Origin: Ferribacterium limneticum
Lineage (GTDB): Bacteria > Pseudomonadota > Gammaproteobacteria > Burkholderiales > Rhodocyclaceae
DNA length: 64,000 bases
Assembly: GCF_020510585.1 (NCBI RefSeq)
Contig: NZ_CP075190.1
Span: 685,001 to 749,000 of the forward strand
Reading direction: 5' to 3'
This document shows, one piece after another, positions 2,812 to 33,493 of this stretch (position 1 is its first letter; each line of letters starts with the position of its first letter). Made by a program: the position numbers and the translations under genes. The notes beneath the pieces were generated by a model that saw only the letters and a list, made by a program, of their open reading frames with translations, did no database searches and was not told where the DNA came from.

Positions 2812-2888
2812 CGGAGTGTAGCTCAGCCTGGTAGAGCACTGCGTTCGGGACGCAGGGGTCGCAAGTTCGAATCCTGTCACTCCGACCA
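2812..2888 (+). tRNA. tRNA-Pro (anticodon CGG)
   Basis: Complete cloverleaf: acceptor arm CGGAGTG (2812-2818) pairs with CACTCCG (2878-2884), discriminator A, encoded CCA (2886-2888). The anticodon stem CTGCG/CGCAG encloses the loop TTCGGGA, giving anticodon CGG. T-arm GTTCGAATC is present. The integrase gene 200 bases downstream suggests this tRNA 3' end is the attachment site of the following element. Confidence 0.96.
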
Positions 2889-2903
2889 AGTAAAGACGGA
2901 ATT

Positions 2904-2928
2904 AGCCCTGATTATTCAGGGCTTTTTT
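2904..2928 (+). terminator. Rho-independent terminator after tRNA-Pro
   Basis: GCCCTGA / TCAGGGC stem followed by six T residues, 16 bases after the tRNA CCA end. Confidence 0.85.
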
Positions 2929-3062
2929 CGTTTACTGCGTCCCATTGGAGCATAAGTTTTTGTCTATGCTCCAATCGTGTGCCAACGAATCCGGGTAGTT
3001 CTGAGCTGACGATCCGAAATCTTTCGGCTCGGCGCCTCGGAAAAGCCGCTAGATCGCTATAC

Positions 3063-3087
3063 GGTAACTCTTACGAAAGGAGTTACC
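3063..3087 (+). promoter_or_regulatory. Hairpin covering the integrase ribosome binding site
   Basis: GGTAACTC (3063-3070) and GAGTTACC (3080-3087) form an 8-bp perfect stem ending immediately before the integrase ATG at 3088. The AAAGGAG Shine-Dalgarno sits in the loop and 3' arm, so the hairpin could limit translation or, as DNA, be a protein binding site. Function is inferred. Confidence 0.5.
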
Positions 3088-4422
3088 ATGGCTCATCAGC
3101 CATCTCGCTGCAGCAATGTTCAGAACCGTTCGCCTTGGCAAGTCGTAGCGCGTAACAAGCCGCAATGCAATCAACGCTTCCCCTTCAATCGCAAGGCGGA
3201 TGCGCAGGCCTACCGTGAGTTGCTCACCGCGCAAGGCATCAAAGCCCAGCTGGTCCAGCTCGCGACGTCGTTCCAGTTGCGGGTCCGTCGCAAAGGGGCC
3301 CGCGTCCAGGTCATCACGTTTGATACGGGGGAACAGGCCGAACAGGCTCGCCTGAAAATCGAATCGGAGCTGTCGGTCAGCATTATTCGGGATTACGCGA
3401 GCGCCGCCCAAACGACGCTGCGCGACCTCATGGAGCGCTATCGTGACGAAGTTGTCCCCGGCCACAAGGGCGCTGATGTCGAGAGGACCCGCATCAACCG
3501 CATTCTGCGTACCGAGGCTTTCGTCGACAAGAAATTGGCGGCGCTTTGCACCGAAGACCTGCAGGATTTCATTACGGACCGACTGACCGAAGTGGCGCCG
3601 GCGACCGTTGACCGCGACCTGGACGTGATTTCCCAGGTGATCCGCTATGCGGCGGATGTCTGGAAAATCGCTGCCGCCGAAAGCCCCTTTGTCGGCTTGC
3701 GGCGGCCAAAGTATTTCAATGAGCGTGACCGGCGCCTACTGCCGGACGAAGAACGGCGATTGCTCGAGGCCGCCCGGGCCGATGAAAATCCCTACGTCGA
3801 GCCGGCTATCATTCTGGCGCTGGAAACGGCCGCCCGACGGGGGGAGTTGCTGTCCATCCGGAAATGCGATGTTTTTCTTGAAGAGCGCTATGCTTACCTT
3901 CGCGATACCAAGAACGGTCGCCCGCGGAAGGTGCCATTGACCACCCGTGCGCTGCAGGTCTGCCAAGCCTTGATGGCGGATTGCAGTGCCGATGATGAAC
4001 CGCTTCTCAAACTGACGGCCAATGCCTTGAAGATCGCCTTTTTTCGGCGGGTGGTTCCGGCTTCCGGCGTTGAAGACATTCATTTCCATGACTTGCGTCA
4101 CGAGGCCATCAGTCGTCTGGCTGAGTCGGGGCAGTTCCAGCTTATTGAACTGCAGGCCATCTCGGGCCATCGGGATACTCGCATGCTGCTGCGCTACGCA
4201 CATCTTTGCTGTGGCAATCTGGCCGAGAAAATGGACAGCGTTGCTATGGAGCGTACCAGTAAGGAGTATTTCCACCACGGACGTCGTCGTCGGGTGGATA
4301 CCGTGACGTCGGTGGTTCACGTTCAACCGAAGACACCACCGCTGGTAGCACCTGTGTCGCAGCCCCAATCCAGCAACGTTATATCGTTGTTTGGTGGTGC
4401 ATTATCCCGGCGCTGCAACTGA
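3088..4422 (+). CDS. Tyrosine recombinase / phage-type integrase
   Basis: 444-residue site-specific recombinase expected to integrate and excise the accessory element at the neighbouring tRNA-Pro. The catalytic set is complete: Arg250 in TAARRGELLSI, Lys275 in TKNGRPR, His334 and Arg337 in HFHDLRH, His361 in SGHRDTRM and nucleophile Tyr370 in LLRYAH. The N-terminal 200 residues hold the arm- and core-binding region. Start ATG has AAAGGAG five bases upstream. Position and orientation next to a tRNA 3' end are typical of genomic-island integrases. No second att copy was recognised in the window, so the far end of the element is not fixed. Confidence 0.92.
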   Translation: MAHQPSRCSNVQNRSPWQVVARNKPQCNQRFPFNRKADAQAYRELLTAQGIKAQLVQLATSFQLRVRRKGARVQVITFDTGEQAEQARLKIESELSVSIIRDYASAAQTTLRDLMERYRDEVVPGHKGADVERTRINRILRTEAFVDKKLAALCTEDLQDFITDRLTEVAPATVDRDLDVISQVIRYAADVWKIAAAESPFVGLRRPKYFNERDRRLLPDEERRLLEAARADENPYVEPAIILALETAARRGELLSIRKCDVFLEERYAYLRDTKNGRPRKVPLTTRALQVCQALMADCSADDEPLLKLTANALKIAFFRRVVPASGVEDIHFHDLRHEAISRLAESGQFQLIELQAISGHRDTRMLLRYAHLCCGNLAEKMDSVAMERTSKEYFHHGRRRRVDTVTSVVHVQPKTPPLVAPVSQPQSSNVISLFGGALSRRCN

Positions 4423-4488
4423 TTGGCTTGGCCCCCGGTGACAAGGCCGGGGGCTCAATTGATATCCGCGGGTATTACTACGCAAATG

Positions 4489-4530
4489 ACCCAAACAGGG
4501 GTTCAGCTTAGGCTGAATCCCTGTTTGGGT
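4489..4530. repeat. Near-perfect inverted repeat between convergent int and fic genes
   Basis: ACCCAAACAGGG-GTTCAGC and GCTGAAT-CCCTGTTTGGGT pair over 19 positions with one mismatch around a TTAG loop. It lies between the 3' ends of two convergent genes, so a bidirectional terminator is the simplest reading; there is no clear T-run on either side. Confidence 0.6.
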
Positions 4531-4564
4531 TATTTGAAACAGTCGTCTTATAGGGGATGCAACA

Positions 4565-5926
4565 TCACAGCCCAGGTCGGCCGGCGGCAATCCAGTTGTC
4601 CGTGAGCGCGAAACCCAGCCGATACCGTGCGCAGTTATAGGTCTCCAGATGCTGCAGCTCATCGCGCAGCAGTTGCGCAAACTTCTCTTGATCCGCGGGG
4701 TCGATGCCCAAGGTGGGCACCAGATTGGCGACCGCAGCAGCGCTGGCCACGACCTGCCGCACGGCGTCTCCCAGCAACTCCCGGTATTTACGCCGGAAGG
4801 GGTCGGGGGCGCTCGTCGCCTCGAGGACGGCCGCGTACTTGTCGATGGAGCGGCGATAGGTCCAATCGAATAACTCCACGGCAAGCGAGACGTCCTGCTG
4901 CTCATAGACGGCCAGCACCGCAAGCGCGTAGTCGGCCTGCTCAACATCCATGAAGGATAGCGGAGCACAGTTTTGTAGCAGCAAAGGCAGGTTCGCGCAC
5001 AGGCGACTGGTACGCTTGTTACCGTCTTCAAAAGGCTGCAAGTAGGCAATATTCACCCAGAGGAAGAATGCCGCCTCGATAGGGTTTTTGATATGGCAGC
5101 CCTTATCGACGACGGTGGCCAGAATCTCGTCCAAAAGTTGTGGTACCTGCAAGGGCACGTAGACGGAGTTCGTAATGTTGACCACCGTGTTCCGCGCTTT
5201 GCCCAAGGCGTCCGAATTGCGCAGGAGCCCGTTCATCAACAAGCTCTGGATGTTTCGCACGACGACGTCAAGGATGCCGTAATGGGGCACTTCGTCGACC
5301 ACAAACTCGATGGCATCTTTGTGATTCAGTAGCATCAACGCGTCTTCGTCATCACTAGGCGACCGCCCCCGCTCGAACAGCGCCTTCGTGTCGAGCAAGC
5401 TTTTCCGGTTACCTTCCAAACGAGAGGAATGCCACGCCAGGTCAATCAGTAGTTGCTCGAGTACCTTTCGGGCATAGGTGCCCGCGGGTTGCTGCCCTCG
5501 TGCGCGCCCCTTCTCGAAAAGCTCCTGCGCCATCGCCGGCGGGATGAGCGTGGATTGATTAGGGACGTAGTCCTCAACGAACGAGCGTTGATAGGCCACC
5601 GGCTTTCGAGTGCCGATGGGGGCGTTGAGCTTCTCAACGAGCGACTGCCTGCCGGCCGAAAACTGGAACCCGTTGCTGACCAAGCCTGCCGGCCAGGAGG
5701 CCGCCCCCGCCTGCGCCAGGAGCGCATACCGGGTGGCCGGCCCGCCATATCGCTTCTGGATGTTACCCTCCGCAACCATCTGGGCCAGGTGATAATTGAC
5801 CGTCGAGCGCGGGGCGCCGAGCGCCGTTGTAATAGCGTCTGGGGCGCACGCTGCCTGGCCGCCGGCTAGCTGTTGGCCTAGGTACTTGAGGATTTCGGCT
5901 TGGAGGTCGCGGCGGGGAGTGGCCAT
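4565..5926 (-). CDS. Fic-family protein with N-terminal winged-helix domain and altered catalytic motif
   Basis: 453 residues. Residues 5-60 look like a winged-helix DNA-binding domain (ALGAPRSTVNYHLAQMVAEG); the Fic core follows. The Fic loop reads QPFEDGNKRTSR at about 297-308, so the catalytic His of HPFxxGNxR is a Gln. An inhibitory helix motif S-x-x-x-E-G-N (SSRLEGN, 167-173) is intact. Fic proteins usually AMPylate target hydroxyls; with Gln at the base position this one may be inactive, use another chemistry, or act mainly as a regulator. Immediately upstream lies a long dyad that could be its own operator. Convergent with the integrase gene; accessory-element cargo. Start ATG 5926 is the only good N-terminus ahead of the wHTH. 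Confidence 0.85.
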   Translation of the reverse strand: MATPRRDLQAEILKYLGQQLAGGQAACAPDAITTALGAPRSTVNYHLAQMVAEGNIQKRYGGPATRYALLAQAGAASWPAGLVSNGFQFSAGRQSLVEKLNAPIGTRKPVAYQRSFVEDYVPNQSTLIPPAMAQELFEKGRARGQQPAGTYARKVLEQLLIDLAWHSSRLEGNRKSLLDTKALFERGRSPSDDEDALMLLNHKDAIEFVVDEVPHYGILDVVVRNIQSLLMNGLLRNSDALGKARNTVVNITNSVYVPLQVPQLLDEILATVVDKGCHIKNPIEAAFFLWVNIAYLQPFEDGNKRTSRLCANLPLLLQNCAPLSFMDVEQADYALAVLAVYEQQDVSLAVELFDWTYRRSIDKYAAVLEATSAPDPFRRKYRELLGDAVRQVVASAAAVANLVPTLGIDPADQEKFAQLLRDELQHLETYNCARYRLGFALTDNWIAAGRPGL

Positions 5927-5945
5927 CTTCTCACTACCTTCTCAA

Positions 5946-5977
5946 AATATTGTAAGATAAGGCTATTTTACAATATT
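5946..5977. promoter_or_regulatory. 32-bp dyad, probable operator of the fic gene
   Basis: Arms AATATTGTAA (5946-5955) and TTACAATATT (5968-5977) are perfect 10-bp complements; inner ATA/TAT extends the symmetry. It sits 20 bases upstream of the fic start codon, where a repressor would block transcription, and the encoded protein carries a wHTH domain. Autoregulation is an inference. Confidence 0.6.
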
Positions 5978-6228
5978 CTTCCAGGTTAAAGTGATGCGTT
6001 GCTCTATCTTCCGGTATGTATTCTATTTTACAAGAAACTTACAAGTTATTAGAAGAAAGACCGGGAGACGCATTGCATCCCCCAGTCGCCCACTCAGTAT
6101 GGGTGATGTGCCCTACGGAGCCTACTGCGTGCAAGACTGCGGCTGACTCATTTTTTGCTGAGAACATCTTCCAGCTTAATGATTCAATTGGGAGTTGGTC
6201 AGCTGCGTAGTAACACCCATATCCGCCG

Positions 6229-6246
6229 GTATTAGGTAGCACTTGC
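6229..6246 (-). repeat. Left copy of 18-bp inverted repeat flanking hipBA
   Basis: Minus strand reads GCAAGTGCTACCTAATAC, an exact match to 8032-8049 on the plus strand. The copies point outward from the hipBA module. Confidence 0.6.
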
Positions 6247-6406
6247 ACCTAGTCGCGGTTCCGTCCGGAACCACGCCATTGACTTTGTCTTTTTCAGATT
6301 ATCGGTTACTCGGATATTTGGCGATATCTCCATTAAGGATACTTGACTATTATCGGCGTTGCGGATATTTTATATTTATCTGAAATACAGCTACAAGGAA
6401 CCTTTG

Positions 6407-6676
6407 ATGCGTAGGCCTTTTCCCGATACGGTGATTCATACTCCTCAGCAAGCTGGCGCCTATTTGCGTGATCGTCGCAAGGCATTAAAGCTGTCGCAGA
6501 CGCAAGTGGCAACTCGGCTTGGCGTCAGCCAGAACCGATTTTCTGTACTGGAAGCCGTTCCCGGTGACCTGACGCTTGAACGGCTCCTGGTGCTTGCCAA
6601 AACGCTGGGCCTGGAACTTGTACTGCGCTCGCCCGAGCCGCCCGCCAACACAAGCAACACTACAGAGAACTGGTGA
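6407..6676 (+). CDS. hipB: HipB-like antitoxin, XRE-family repressor
   Basis: 89-residue helix-turn-helix protein that would neutralise HipA and repress the hipBA promoter. The helix-turn-helix LSQTQVATRLGVSQNRFSVL lies at about residues 31-50. The ATG at 6407 has AAGGAA upstream; longer in-frame starts lack a binding site. The stop (6674-6676) is one base from the hipA ATG, as usual for this toxin-antitoxin pair. Confidence 0.88.
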   Translation: MRRPFPDTVIHTPQQAGAYLRDRRKALKLSQTQVATRLGVSQNRFSVLEAVPGDLTLERLLVLAKTLGLELVLRSPEPPANTSNTTENW

Positions 6677-6677
6677 A

Positions 6678-8024
6678 ATGGGTCGTCGCTCACATAGCCG
6701 TAAGCTGGCGATCTGGATGAATGGCGTTCGGGTCGGCGAGTGGACAATTTCACCGCAAGGCTATGACCAGCTCAACTATGATGCTGATTGGCTTCAATCA
6801 CCTCGCGCCCGTCCCCTTTCCTTATCACTCCCGCTGCAGTCCGCGCCAATTCGCGCTCCCGCGGTGGGCGCGTACTTTGACAACCTGCTGCCGGATAGTG
6901 ACCCCATTCGCAAACGCCTGCAGGCCCGCTTTGCCACCCAGGGCCGGTCAGCTTTTGACCTGTTGGAATCCATTGGCCGGGATTGTGTCGGTGCCGTACA
7001 ACTTTTACCGCCAGACGCTCTGCCAGCAGACCACCGCCACGTAGACGTCACCCCGCTCACAGAAGCACAGGTTGCCCAGATACTGCGCGACACCACACTG
7101 CCCAGCGGCGGAATTTTTCGGGAGACCCCTGCGGACTTTCGCATATCGATTGCCGGCGCCCAGGAAAAGACGGCACTGACCTGGGGCGACGGGGAATGGT
7201 GCCTGCCCCGGGGAATGACGCCGACAACCCACATTTTCAAATTACCACTGGGACTTGTCGGCGCCCGCAAAGCAGACATGCGAACGTCGGTCGAAAATGA
7301 ATGGCTCTGTGCCCAATTGTTGCGGGCCTATGGACTCCCCATCGCTGAAACCGCAATGGGGCTATTCGAGGACCAAAAGGCACTGATTGTGACGCGCTTC
7401 GACCGCCAGCGTGTCGCAGAGGGCTACTGGTTACGGCTTCCGCAGGAAGATTTCTGCCAGGCCCTGGGGCGCCCCTCCGAAGCGAAGTATGAAAGCGATG
7501 GCGGGCCAGGGCACGCGGAGGTCATCGAGAAACTGGTCTTGTCTCACAACGCGGCGACTGACCTCATCACCTTTTTTCGCTCACAACTTCTTTTCTGGAT
7601 GTTGGCAGCAACAGATGGCCATGCCAAAAACTTCAGCCTGTACTTGCTGCCCGGGGCACGTTACGAGCTTACACCCCTCTATGACGTACTTTCTGCTTGG
7701 CCTGTTACGGGCCAAGGCGCCAACCTTCTTAACTACAAAGAGTTAAAGCTCGCGATGGCGTTGCACAGCACCAACAGGCACTACTTGCTGGAGAAAGTCC
7801 AAGACCGGCATTTTTTGGCGCTTGCCGCGAGATGTCGCTTCGGTCAAGCCGAGGGCCGGCTCCTGATAGACGAACTGCTGGAGAAAACGGCATCGGTAAT
7901 CGACCAGGTGGGCAACCTGCTCCCGACAAGTTTCCCCCTGGATGTTTTTGATGCAATCACGGAAGGATTAACTTGGTCAGCAAACCGCCTTGCCCTGAGC
8001 GCCAAGCAGGCCACGAAAAATTAG
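6678..8024 (+). CDS. hipA: HipA-like serine/threonine kinase toxin
   Basis: 448 residues, family-typical length. HipA kinases phosphorylate glutamyl-tRNA synthetase (or related targets) and induce persistence. Visible motifs: N-terminal subdomain with AVGAYFDNLLPD, the Ser-containing loop SIAGAQEKTAL (P-loop-like, autophosphorylation site in E. coli HipA), ATDGHAKNFSL holding the catalytic Asp and Asn, and LTPLYDVLSAWP with the Mg-binding Asp. Start ATG 6678 follows hipB by one base, so translation is coupled. Part of the integrated element, where it may stabilise the island. Confidence 0.9.
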   Translation: MGRRSHSRKLAIWMNGVRVGEWTISPQGYDQLNYDADWLQSPRARPLSLSLPLQSAPIRAPAVGAYFDNLLPDSDPIRKRLQARFATQGRSAFDLLESIGRDCVGAVQLLPPDALPADHRHVDVTPLTEAQVAQILRDTTLPSGGIFRETPADFRISIAGAQEKTALTWGDGEWCLPRGMTPTTHIFKLPLGLVGARKADMRTSVENEWLCAQLLRAYGLPIAETAMGLFEDQKALIVTRFDRQRVAEGYWLRLPQEDFCQALGRPSEAKYESDGGPGHAEVIEKLVLSHNAATDLITFFRSQLLFWMLAATDGHAKNFSLYLLPGARYELTPLYDVLSAWPVTGQGANLLNYKELKLAMALHSTNRHYLLEKVQDRHFLALAARCRFGQAEGRLLIDELLEKTASVIDQVGNLLPTSFPLDVFDAITEGLTWSANRLALSAKQATKN

Positions 8025-9330: not shown

Positions 9331-9966
9331 CTAACGTGCTGTGAGTTGCATTGGTTCTCCGTGACTCATCTTTTGCACGTGGAAAATCACCGGAAGCTCT
9401 CCCGCATTTCCTCGGCGTCTGGCTTCCTGATACAAGCTCCAGGTTTGTTGCCGTACCCCATGGAAGCCTGGTTGACGCGAAAGTCGCTCCAGCCACCCCT
9501 GTAGGGCTTTTTCATTGCGCAGGCCCGAGAGGGAGGCCAGTAATACATAGTGTTCGGCCATTTCGACTTTCGGACGGCGCCAAGTCCAACTTGTACGCCC
9601 ACGGGTTGGGTAGCGCACCAGTTCGTAGCCCAGCCAGTTGAGGCGAGATTTGCTGGTGACCGATAGCCAGTCTTCTTGCTCCAGGCCGTTGCCCTCCGTG
9701 GCGAGCAATAGCCAATGCACAATCTCGGCGTTTTCCGGCCAGTACAGGACCAGAAGGGCATTGGCGTCCCCCCGCCGTTTTCTGACCAAGCGCTGCGCTG
9801 GCGTGGCGCCGATAGCGTAGCGGGCGTGGAACTTGTGGGCGAGGCGCTCAGCCTTGGCGGCCCGGATGGTGCCCGAGGTGTACCGTTGGTAGCCGCGTGG
9901 GACCAAATCCAGAATACGACTCAGGGCGGCGGTTTTGCTACGCGAGACAGGTGTGGTGGTAGGCAT
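9331..9966 (-). CDS. Hypothetical protein of the accessory element
   Basis: 211 residues, basic, no recognised domain. N-terminus MPTTTPVSRSKTAALSRILD, then an Arg/Lys-rich segment (AKAERLAHKFHARYAIG) and a Trp-rich middle (RTSWTWRRPKVEMAEHY), suggesting nucleic-acid contact, but this is only composition. Its start codon lies inside one arm of the 19-bp inverted repeat at 9965-10020, which could regulate it. Neighbours on both sides are noncoding. Confidence 0.6.
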   Translation of the reverse strand: MPTTTPVSRSKTAALSRILDLVPRGYQRYTSGTIRAAKAERLAHKFHARYAIGATPAQRLVRKRRGDANALLVLYWPENAEIVHWLLLATEGNGLEQEDWLSVTSKSRLNWLGYELVRYPTRGRTSWTWRRPKVEMAEHYVLLASLSGLRNEKALQGWLERLSRQPGFHGVRQQTWSLYQEARRRGNAGELPVIFHVQKMSHGEPMQLTAR

Positions 9967-10020
9967 TGGTGCGGGATTCCTATTTGGGATTGATACCCCG
10001 TATAGGAATCCCGCACCAAT
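9965..10020. repeat. 19-bp perfect inverted repeat with 18-bp spacer
   Basis: ATTGGTGCGGGATTCCTAT (9965-9983) and its exact complement (10002-10020). The left arm covers the start codon of the minus-strand gene ending at 9966. As DNA it could be an operator or recombination site; as RNA a strong hairpin at the extreme 5' end of that mRNA. Confidence 0.7.
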
Positions 10021-10134
10021 GCAGTGTGATTTGTTGTGGCGTAGTCACACATATTGATGTTCCACGCAAAAATGGCGGCAATCGCTATACCAACCTGGAC
10101 ACAAGCGTGCTGACGATGAAGATCGTCTGCGTGC

Positions 10135-11190
10135 GCATGCTGCGGCGTTCTGCCCAAAGCAACTGCCCGGCAGGGCGGGTGTTTCGGGCAGAACGCCAAC
10201 TGCAAACACACTGGCCGCAAGGCCACGTCGGGTCGCCAACCCGACAGGCAGAGGATCGCCATTCCTTTGTCAAGCAAACGCTGAAGCGCAGTGCCTCTAA
10301 TCAGGCTCGCTGCGCTACGCTGGGCGCTCGGGGGTGTAACTCCCCCGTTCGACCCAATCGCACGTCCCGACTGACTGCCAGGCAACGACCGGTCAGACCC
10401 GGGCAAGAGGACACGAGGTTGGGCGACCGTGAAACGGCACTCGAGAGGAAATGCTCGAGCGACCTGGTTGCACGCGAAAGTCGGTGAAGTCCGACTCGGG
10501 GGGCATATCGGAAGAGTGCAACCCGTGCCGCACAGGATGGCTTTTGAGCGCGTCGCAAGGCGTGAGGGTATCAAGGCGAAAGCTGGCGATACCGGCACCT
10601 GGAGAAATCCGGGGTCAATGGATAGCTCAAACCTGTAACGGCACCCAGAAGGGTGCTGTGCGGAGAAATACAAAGCCATAAGCATTGAGCTGTGGTTCGT
10701 CGTCGATGACGTACGTAACGAGTACCTGAGCCGCTATGGAACATCGGGCCGGGGAAATCTACGGAAAGCCGGAAGGCTAGTTACGTTACTGAGACAGTGG
10801 CGTTGTATTTCGCAGTAGCTGCAATCTAAATGGGGAGCCTCCCTGACGACACCAACGGGTGGCACCGTGGTGGGTGAAGCAGGGAGGGGGAGACTCGGTG
10901 AATAGGGTTTGACCGACAGGACGATACGACCGAAGTCCGTCGGGAACTGTGCAAGCAGTGGCGAGGGTGGCACCTTGTCCCGAAAGCCGGGAGCGTTTGC
11001 GAAAGTGTGCTCCCCGAGAGGGGAGATATTGGGCTTGGCAGCCCGTTGCAGTATGGCCTCCTGAGCCGCTTGGCGGCGGTTCAGGGGACAACATCGTTTG
11101 GCGACGATGTGAGCGTAAAAGGGGTTTGGCATTATGCCGAACGTTATTCAATATCACTTCGGGCACCCCGCGATTGCGGGGTGCCTGTCT
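10135..11190 (+). ncRNA. Candidate large structured RNA (group II intron-like or unknown family)
   Basis: About 1.05 kb without a credible gene but packed with consecutive hairpins: 10144-10155/10186-10197 (12 bp perfect), 10227-10233/10239-10245, 10440-10445/10454-10459, 10567-10572/10588-10593, 10640-10646/10651-10657 (AGAA loop), 10838-10845/10880-10887, 10913-10922/10935-10943, 10989-10994/11009-11014 (enclosing GCGAAAGT), 11060-11069/11074-11085 (GAGCCGC-TTGG-CGGCGGTTC), 11091-11097/11104-11110, and a terminator-like GGCACCCCGC-GATT-GCGGGGTGCC at 11162-11185. GNRA-type GAAA loops recur. The element GGGGGTGTAACTCCCCC near 10339 and the GAGCCG...CGGTTC ends recall group II intron domains, but there is no reverse transcriptase and no canonical 34-nt domain V. 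Strand inferred from loop sequences and the terminal hairpin. Exact ends unknown. Confidence 0.45.
11162..11185 (+). terminator. Strong hairpin closing the structured region
   Basis: Ten-pair stem GGCACCCCGC/GCGGGGTGCC with loop GATT, followed by TGTCTTTG. T-run is poor, so a terminator call is tentative. Confidence 0.45.
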
Positions 11191-11455
11191 TTGATCGCGA
11201 GTTCTCGTCTTGACAGTCGGGGGCGCAGCAACCGACACTTGCCGAACTGCTGAAACAACAGCAGCCGGGGGTGAGAGCCCGATATTGGAGTTCGACCAGA
11301 GGCAGCGTCTTGCCTGTCCTCTGTCGTCTGGTGCGCCTATGGGCGGCCGGGCGAGGGGAGCCTTGTGCTCGCCGGTGCTCCATCGGTCTCTCAACCTTCG
11401 TTTCGGTCGCCCACCCCGATTGAGAGCGGGAGGGAATCAACTACAGGAGCGCATC

Positions 11456-32377: not shown

Positions 32378-33493
32378 TTATTGAGCCGTCCCTATAAAAC
32401 GTTGCTTAAGGCCCGTGCTGGCGGCGCTCTCGATAGCCTGCAGCAGGCGATGGCGATTCACAGCGTCATCGAAGGTGGGGCAGAGGTGGGTGCCTTCGTG
32501 CCAATCCCTGGCCAGGCGTCCGTAGGCCTGGGCGACATTAAAGGCAAAGCCAGGGGCAGGTTGAGGCGGTGACCAGCGATAGTTGGCAGGCACGGGTAGT
32601 GCTTGAAGGCCTGTATCGCTCCCGCGTCCACCCGCAACGGTCAGCTCGAACATCTGGGCATGACCTCCTGCGGCGGTGATCTGGAGATCGCCTTCGGTAC
32701 CGTTGATCTCCCAGAGCAGATTGGTCCCGCGCGATACGCCGCCGCGATAATGCACGGATACGGCAGCACCGCAGCTTAGCAGACCATCAATGCAGATCTG
32801 GTCGGGCGTTGTCATCGGCTGCTGGACGCCGGTTTCGGAGATGCTGAAGGTCTTGCGGCGGATTGCGGTGGTTGCTGACAACTGGTCGAACTCGCCGAGG
32901 CAGTAGCACAGAGCATCGATGGTGTGGCCGAGGGGTATGGAGAGCAGCGTCGCGCCGTTGCGAGCATCGGCGGTGTAGGCATTGGCTTCCTCGATCACCG
33001 GCCCCCAGTTCATACCCGAGCCGACGAGCGTCGTGGAGAGGACTTCGCCGATGTAGCCTTCGGCGATCACATCACGTACATAATTGATTGCTGGTGCCGA
33101 CCTGGCTTGCAGCCCGACGACCCCAAGCACGTTTTTTTCCCGAGCCAGTCGGGCCATTTCGATTGTCTCTTCAATACCATTGCCGAGGGGCCATTCGCAA
33201 TACACAGCCTTGCCTGCAGTGAGCGCAGCGGTGACCAGTTCGAGGTGGTGGGGTACCTTGACGGTAATGACGACGAGATCCACCTCGGGATGGTGGACCA
33301 GTTCAGCGTGATTGTCGAAACACAGCGGTACTCCGAAGAGTTTCCCGGCTGCTTGTGCCGAGTCGCGGCGACTGGTAGATAGTGCGCGGATTTCGAAATC
33401 TGGCAGGGACTTTAGGGCGGGAATGTGAGCCCATGCAGCCCAACCGCGATCTGGATTAGCCCCGATGATGCCGACACCAATTTTACTGGTCAT
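32378..33493 (-). CDS. Gfo/Idh/MocA-family oxidoreductase
   Basis: 371 residues, NAD(P)-dependent. N-terminal fold IGVGIIGANPDRGWAAWAHI, strand IRALSTSRRDSAQA, the family motif AVYCEWPLGNGIEETIEM (equivalent of EKP), and GLQARSAPAINYVRDVI. The EKP motif is EWP here, losing the usual Lys, so hydride transfer may be altered. ATG 33493 has AGGA eight bases upstream. Last gene of the six-gene minus operon; 64 bases after the Rieske gene. Confidence 0.87.
   Translation of the reverse strand: MTSKIGVGIIGANPDRGWAAWAHIPALKSLPDFEIRALSTSRRDSAQAAGKLFGVPLCFDNHAELVHHPEVDLVVITVKVPHHLELVTAALTAGKAVYCEWPLGNGIEETIEMARLAREKNVLGVVGLQARSAPAINYVRDVIAEGYIGEVLSTTLVGSGMNWGPVIEEANAYTADARNGATLLSIPLGHTIDALCYCLGEFDQLSATTAIRRKTFSISETGVQQPMTTPDQICIDGLLSCGAAVSVHYRGGVSRGTNLLWEINGTEGDLQITAAGGHAQMFELTVAGGRGSDTGLQALPVPANYRWSPPQPAPGFAFNVAQAYGRLARDWHEGTHLCPTFDDAVNRHRLLQAIESAASTGLKQRFIGTAQ

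Follow-up and report, generated by a model that had tools for sequence, protein, structure and literature searches.

The gene-less stretch at positions 10135-11190 of a 64,000-nt window of the Ferribacterium limneticum chromosome (NZ_CP075190.1, 685,001-749,000) encodes a large structured RNA. Matched feature by feature with the class described by Roth et al. (2021; PMC8637638), this RNA belongs to the circularly permuted (CP) group II ribozymes. We hold with high confidence the proposal as a whole, namely that 10276-10998 is a CP group II ribozyme that back-splices by way of A10352 and has a putative maturase partner, AcpG, encoded by a divergent gene upstream. CP group II ribozymes are about 900 nt long, have the domain order D5-D6-D1-D2-D3-D4, and carry reversed, internal splice sites. 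According to the accessible text of that paper, members from five species yield small circles and a branched RNA in vitro, and the class is often plasmid-borne. This paper was the only one on CP group II RNA among the matches listed in our literature search, whose coverage leaves out most subscription papers. Few large catalytic RNAs are known, and CP group II ribozymes count among them; what is new here is one more copy, together with a reading of AcpG, the sole associated protein, which was without a known relative in 2021.

Dense folding of the stretch, proposed in an initial annotation made from the sequence alone, was borne out. The minimum free energy of 10270-11190 is -413.8 kcal/mol compared to -359.3 (standard deviation 8.4) for 20 shuffled sequences, none of which folded as well (z -6.5). 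With the window stretch as query, blastn found matches, partial and without annotation, on 12 plasmid records, in seven of 5426 E. coli genomes (all plasmid-borne), and in four of 60 genomes (the source genome and three others from its genus); no match was found in 50,697 phage records. Follow-up queries with four relatives reached 10 (L012), 38 (L010), 14 (L007), and 52 (L013) plasmid records, the L013 set lying partly outside the RNA. A core pattern built from the blastn hits, with fixed blocks TAAT, GCTSG, GRGCGYT, and YCGAYYCAA, was run through 84,980 species genomes and gave 73 loci, mostly in alpha-, beta-, and gammaproteobacteria. A few are labelled otherwise (Verrucomicrobiaceae, Brocadia, Oscillospiraceae, Mycobacterium), possibly through binning or labelling errors, and the Brocadia locus (L054) was rejected as a chance match because it has no 5' splice site. 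Viral contigs gave no match to this pattern, and four matches to a looser form were judged to be chance.

Since some loci are not independent (L033 and L037 look alike, as do L034 and L086), the alignment was thinned to sequences less than 90% identical, leaving 72 of the 84 full-length sequences (out of 91 extracted), with a mean identity of 53%. Invariance within the four fixed blocks is by construction because the search pattern imposes it; the rest is free of this constraint. Covariation was scored over 928 columns with a G-test and average-product correction. Among the top 110 covarying pairs, 76 were at least 80% canonical compared to 3.9% in a background sample of 1000 pairs. These pairs make up a nested set of long-range helices enclosing 10276-10998, with the stems of D1, D2, and D3 inside. 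Across 88 nested pairs, 84.5% of cells are canonical, a figure lowered by two helices (h-g and h-i) entered off register, and 81 pairs show double changes (1923 cells). Control pairings slid along the alignment were 39-44% canonical and 200 shuffles averaged 55.2% (maximum 56.6%). The compensatory changes in relatives that the initial annotation had named as support are therefore present. They also refute the idea that the region is coding or that its folding merely follows composition, which we regard as having next to no chance of being correct: overlapping mechanical open reading frames do occur on both strands, with nothing seen in their favour though no family search of them was made, and a "hypothetical protein" has been called across the RNA in one relative (L016), but neither would account for compensatory changes in helices whose strands lie far apart.

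The domains are arranged in the order D5-D6-linker-D1-D2-D3-D4 (Table 1), and this order makes the splice sites internal and reversed. Domain V had been thought missing; a D5-like hairpin is present near the 5' end because the domains are permuted. Its lower stem is 98% canonical with double changes in six of seven pairs, and its triad is conserved (A10285 in 62, G10286 in 72, and C10287 in 69 of 72 sequences). Five base pairs separate the triad from the UN bulge, where U10307 and C/G10308 are found, the bulge being part of the search pattern. The motif GTGTAACTCCCCC near 10343, earlier likened to group II intron parts, is the tip of D6 (10329-10347), and GAGCCG...CGGTTC at 11062-11082 belongs to the 3' region and is not domain V. 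In D6, the bulged A10352 and the AAU at 10356-10358 also occur in the relatives found by blastn; A10352 and the AA are fixed by the pattern, while U10358, which is not, is present in 71 of 72 sequences. The 5' splice site, marked by the sequence GGGCGAC at 10421, comes after the 3' site. Pairing of intron-binding site 1 (IBS1) with exon-binding site 1 (EBS1), 10418-10420/10740-10742, is 90% canonical, with double changes in all three pairs (28 cells). A GC at 10423-10424 is a candidate for one side of the epsilon-epsilon' interaction.

If CAAU ends at the 3' site and GGGCGAC begins at the 5' site, the linker in the window is 62 nt long. The same map applied to the copy on Polaromonas naphthalenivorans pPNAP05 (L008), which blastn had found as a relative of the window copy, gives 32 nt, which equals the circle published for this copy, one of those tested, in the available portion of PMC8637638. 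The same rule predicts a 62-nt circle, 10359-10420, for the window RNA. The agreement is imperfect, since two Acinetobacter radioresistens copies have linkers of 62 and about 26 nt, compared to a circle of 50 nt given for this species by the same source. By accepting the first fuzzy match, the linker script miscalls some loci (for example 2 nt at L027), and it was used only for the window, L008, and L002/L092.

An Rfam search had been put forward as the decider. At gathering thresholds, no group II model of Rfam 15 matched the window, and at E values up to 10 the searched region had no hit to group II or to GOLLD, ROOL, OLE, and HEARO, which are likewise large, ornate bacterial noncoding RNAs. 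Rfam 15 could not settle the identity because the published locus L008, used as a control, also lacks a group II hit. The class appears to have no Rfam 15 model and is consequently overlooked by annotation pipelines. The RNA shares with CP group II ribozymes, also called T-large RNA (PMC8637638, as far as its text was available), the domain order, the triad and UN bulge of D5, a bulged A within D6, a short linker between reversed splice sites, IBS-EBS pairing, a divergent acpG, and occurrence on both plasmids and chromosomes. The window copy differs from the published members in its 62-nt linker and in its chromosomal site, where a tRNA-Pro and an integrase gene precede it; its activity is predicted. 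Canonical bacterial group II introns share the D1-D6 parts and the logic of the splice sites, whereas the window RNA is permuted and has no open reading frame in D4. The choice initially offered, between an ORF-less or degenerate group II intron and an unclassified RNA, was right in pointing to a group II derivative without an internal reading frame, but the RNA is neither degenerate nor unclassified. We consider it extremely unlikely that it is an ordinary group II intron that decayed, was permuted by accident, and is now functionless. The missing internal reading frame and the lack of a match to a group II reverse transcriptase (RT) in the genome would fit such decay; the shuffled order, pairing, and splice-site sequences are nonetheless conserved across three proteobacterial classes, alpha, beta, and gamma, and the five other members described in the accessible text of PMC8637638 were active in vitro.

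We propose that 10276-10998 is transcribed rightward together with the 5' hairpins and a 3' terminator. Because D5 and D6 come first, A10352 would attack the downstream 5' splice site at 10420|10421, and the freed 3' end would then attack the upstream 3' splice site at 10358|10359. By analogy with other members studied in vitro (PMC8637638, in part), this would release the 62-nt circle from the window copy and leave a branched RNA. AcpG may be a much reduced relative of group II intron-encoded proteins that binds the RNA in trans as a maturase, in the manner of the dead RT domain of spliceosomal Prp8. The RNA and AcpG travel jointly on plasmids and integrated elements. Our best guess is that a branched RNA-AcpG particle cuts or joins matching RNA or DNA by means of the EBS loops.

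Many copies lie on small plasmids near rep genes, and the pPNAP05 copy is near the origin according to the available part of PMC8637638, raising the question of whether the RNA serves in plasmid replication or in the control of copy number. This is very unlikely. The minimal origin of pMtBL, at 1918-2759 in the accessible text of PMC10033558, is separate from the RNA match at 3120-3462, the Thermus thermophilus plasmid pTT8 replicates without its copy (PMC8637638, in part), and the window copy lies on the chromosome of a genome assembled as a single contig of 4.4 Mb. A role as replication origin was rejected on the pMtBL and pTT8 evidence. Among the plasmids, a 3,064-bp E. coli plasmid (L010) consists mostly of repL and the CP group II RNA, with no acpG detected, and is a minimal natural carrier.

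The divergent reading frame at 9331-9966 belongs to the same module as the RNA, a link that the initial annotation missed, and to the same family as genes beside other CP group II RNAs. A hidden Markov model of this family matches the pTT8 open reading frame 6125-6940 (E 4e-19), which by place and length is probably the type AcpG, TTHC007; the two share sequence family and divergent position but are about 211 aa here compared to about 260 aa there. The accessible text of PMC8637638 gives the name AcpG to the product of a divergent open reading frame near CP group II RNAs, absent beside some of them, and reports no detected homology and no intron-encoded proteins near these RNAs. In the 73 loci defined by the RNA, acpG is upstream and divergent in 56 (55 called by script and L042 by hand, several being cut at contig ends and L073 in pieces), elsewhere in one, and not found in 16, seven of which have less than 1,500 nt upstream. 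The median distance from the acpG start to the RNA core is 391 nt. Distances between RNAs and between AcpGs correlate, as expected from co-inheritance; this is no proof of contact. Thiothrix unzii pTunz1 (L018) has two cores, at 33124 and 17733 (minus strand), one beside an acpG at the record end and the other with no acpG hit seen next to it. On Acinetobacter plasmids, a larger divergent protein is encoded upstream of the RNA (L013 3344-4357, L100 4020-5435, L101 900-2018); for that of L013, weak homology to AcpG was detected (E 3e-17).

We lean, with moderate confidence, towards AcpG being the missing intron-encoded protein, a mini RT relative that has lost the catalytic aspartates, moved from D4 to its own divergent gene, and retained only a maturase role in trans. 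It would be a separately evolved bacterial counterpart of Prp8 and, with the RNA, form a module that plasmids and integrated elements carry as an independent passenger. With a pI of 10.8, AcpG may bind the RNA and aid its folding in trans. Its predicted fold may comprise a palm-like sheet and a three-helix thumb, and is closest in VIA-align to the canonical RT/maturase, compared to which AcpG is half the length, encoded outside the RNA in divergent orientation, without a conserved YADD, and without detectable sequence similarity. No conserved pair of aspartates was found, [YFMV].DD occurring in six of 63 AcpGs at no conserved place. The RT-like domain of spliceosomal Prp8, a huge eukaryotic protein, matches more weakly and is missing from the list of the first AcpG model.

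A possible but less favoured alternative is that the RNA is a CP group II ribozyme and AcpG an unrelated co-traveller with a similar layout of alpha/beta fold and three helices. Several results pull in this direction: comparison of the AcpG profile with group II RT/maturases gave an hhalign probability of 0.4%, with no sequence similarity detectable; Foldseek with the second AcpG model did not rank group II proteins first; E98, invariant in 46 of 46 AcpGs, could be catalytic for another purpose; and some CP RNAs have no acpG beside them. Against it, two AcpGs that are 22% identical each independently have group II proteins as their highest-ranked VIA-align matches, and they are encoded beside a group II-derived ribozyme. 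AcpG has no Pfam or NCBIfam family above cut-off and no match in BFVD at E <= 0.001. Weak Pfam and NCBIfam hits (E 0.0056-0.19) fell under cut-off, were to different families, and were rejected. Should AcpG prove to be a dead-RT maturase, the RNA would form the core of a ribonucleoprotein and not be a stranded intron, the lack of an intron-encoded protein would be accounted for, and a spliceosome-like combination of group II RNA with a catalytically dead RT protein would have arisen two or more times. Cognate pairs like that of the window allow this maturase role to be tested directly.

Table 1. Features of the CP group II module in the window (names P1 and P2 follow the accessible text of PMC8637638)
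Feature	Position	Strand	Description
acpG	9331-9966	-	about 211-aa basic protein, divergent, upstream of RNA; predicted dead-RT/maturase fold
Hairpin over acpG start codon	9963-10022	.	21-bp perfect arms; start codon in 3' arm
P1-like hairpin	10227-10245	+	CGCCA loop; probable assignment, from sequence
P2-like hairpin	10250-10268	+	conserved GCCA in loop (alignment)
Conserved CP group II core	10276-10998	+	closing helix 10276-10279/10995-10998; covariation, double changes in 4/4 pairs
D5	10285-10316	+	AGC triad 10285-10287; 2-nt bulge UC 10307-10308; covariation
D6	about 10322-10358	+	bulged branch-point A10352; 3' splice site 10358|10359 after AAU; covariation
Linker between reversed splice sites	10359-10420	+	predicted 62-nt RNA circle; GUU 10418-10420 = IBS1
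D1	10421-10832	+	5' splice site 10420|10421; base 10428-10430/10830-10832; covariation
EBS1 AAC	10740-10742	+	loop of hairpin 10725-10753
D2	10838-10887	+	covariation
D3	10894-10991	+	covariation
3' region, D4 and beyond by position	10999-11161	+	little conserved (alignment)
Terminator-like hairpin and T-run	11162-11192	+	from sequence

Outside the core, the loop GCCA at 10258-10261 is complementary to UGGC at 10860-10863 in D2, both conserved, and the two could form a P2-D2 loop-loop pseudoknot. The ten-pair closing hairpin noted initially is present (11162-11171/11176-11185, loop GATT) and, with the TGTCTTT next to it, looks like an intrinsic terminator. The conserved RNA does not include the 12-bp hairpin at 10144-10197. 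The hairpin over the acpG start is retained with 19 bp in Dechloromonas denitrificans (L051) and with 14 bp and a changed arm sequence in L002/L092; it is possibly a translational switch of acpG. Hits of mir-276 and similar Rfam families at about 9952-10059 are chance matches to this hairpin.

In the region 2812-8024, a tRNA-Pro is followed by genes for a tyrosine-integrase-type protein (3088-4422), a Fic-domain protein (4565-5926, minus strand), and HipA (6576-8024), suggesting that the ribozyme is carried by an integrated element. A simple search for the element's other end found no repeat of the tRNA-Pro region. C4 antisense RNA is known from P1/P4-type elements. One such RNA (RF01695; 46.4 bits, cut-off 45) lies just 3' of the ribozyme at 11335-11418, and a sub-threshold match resembling its c4-a1b1 target is found at 11233-11285.
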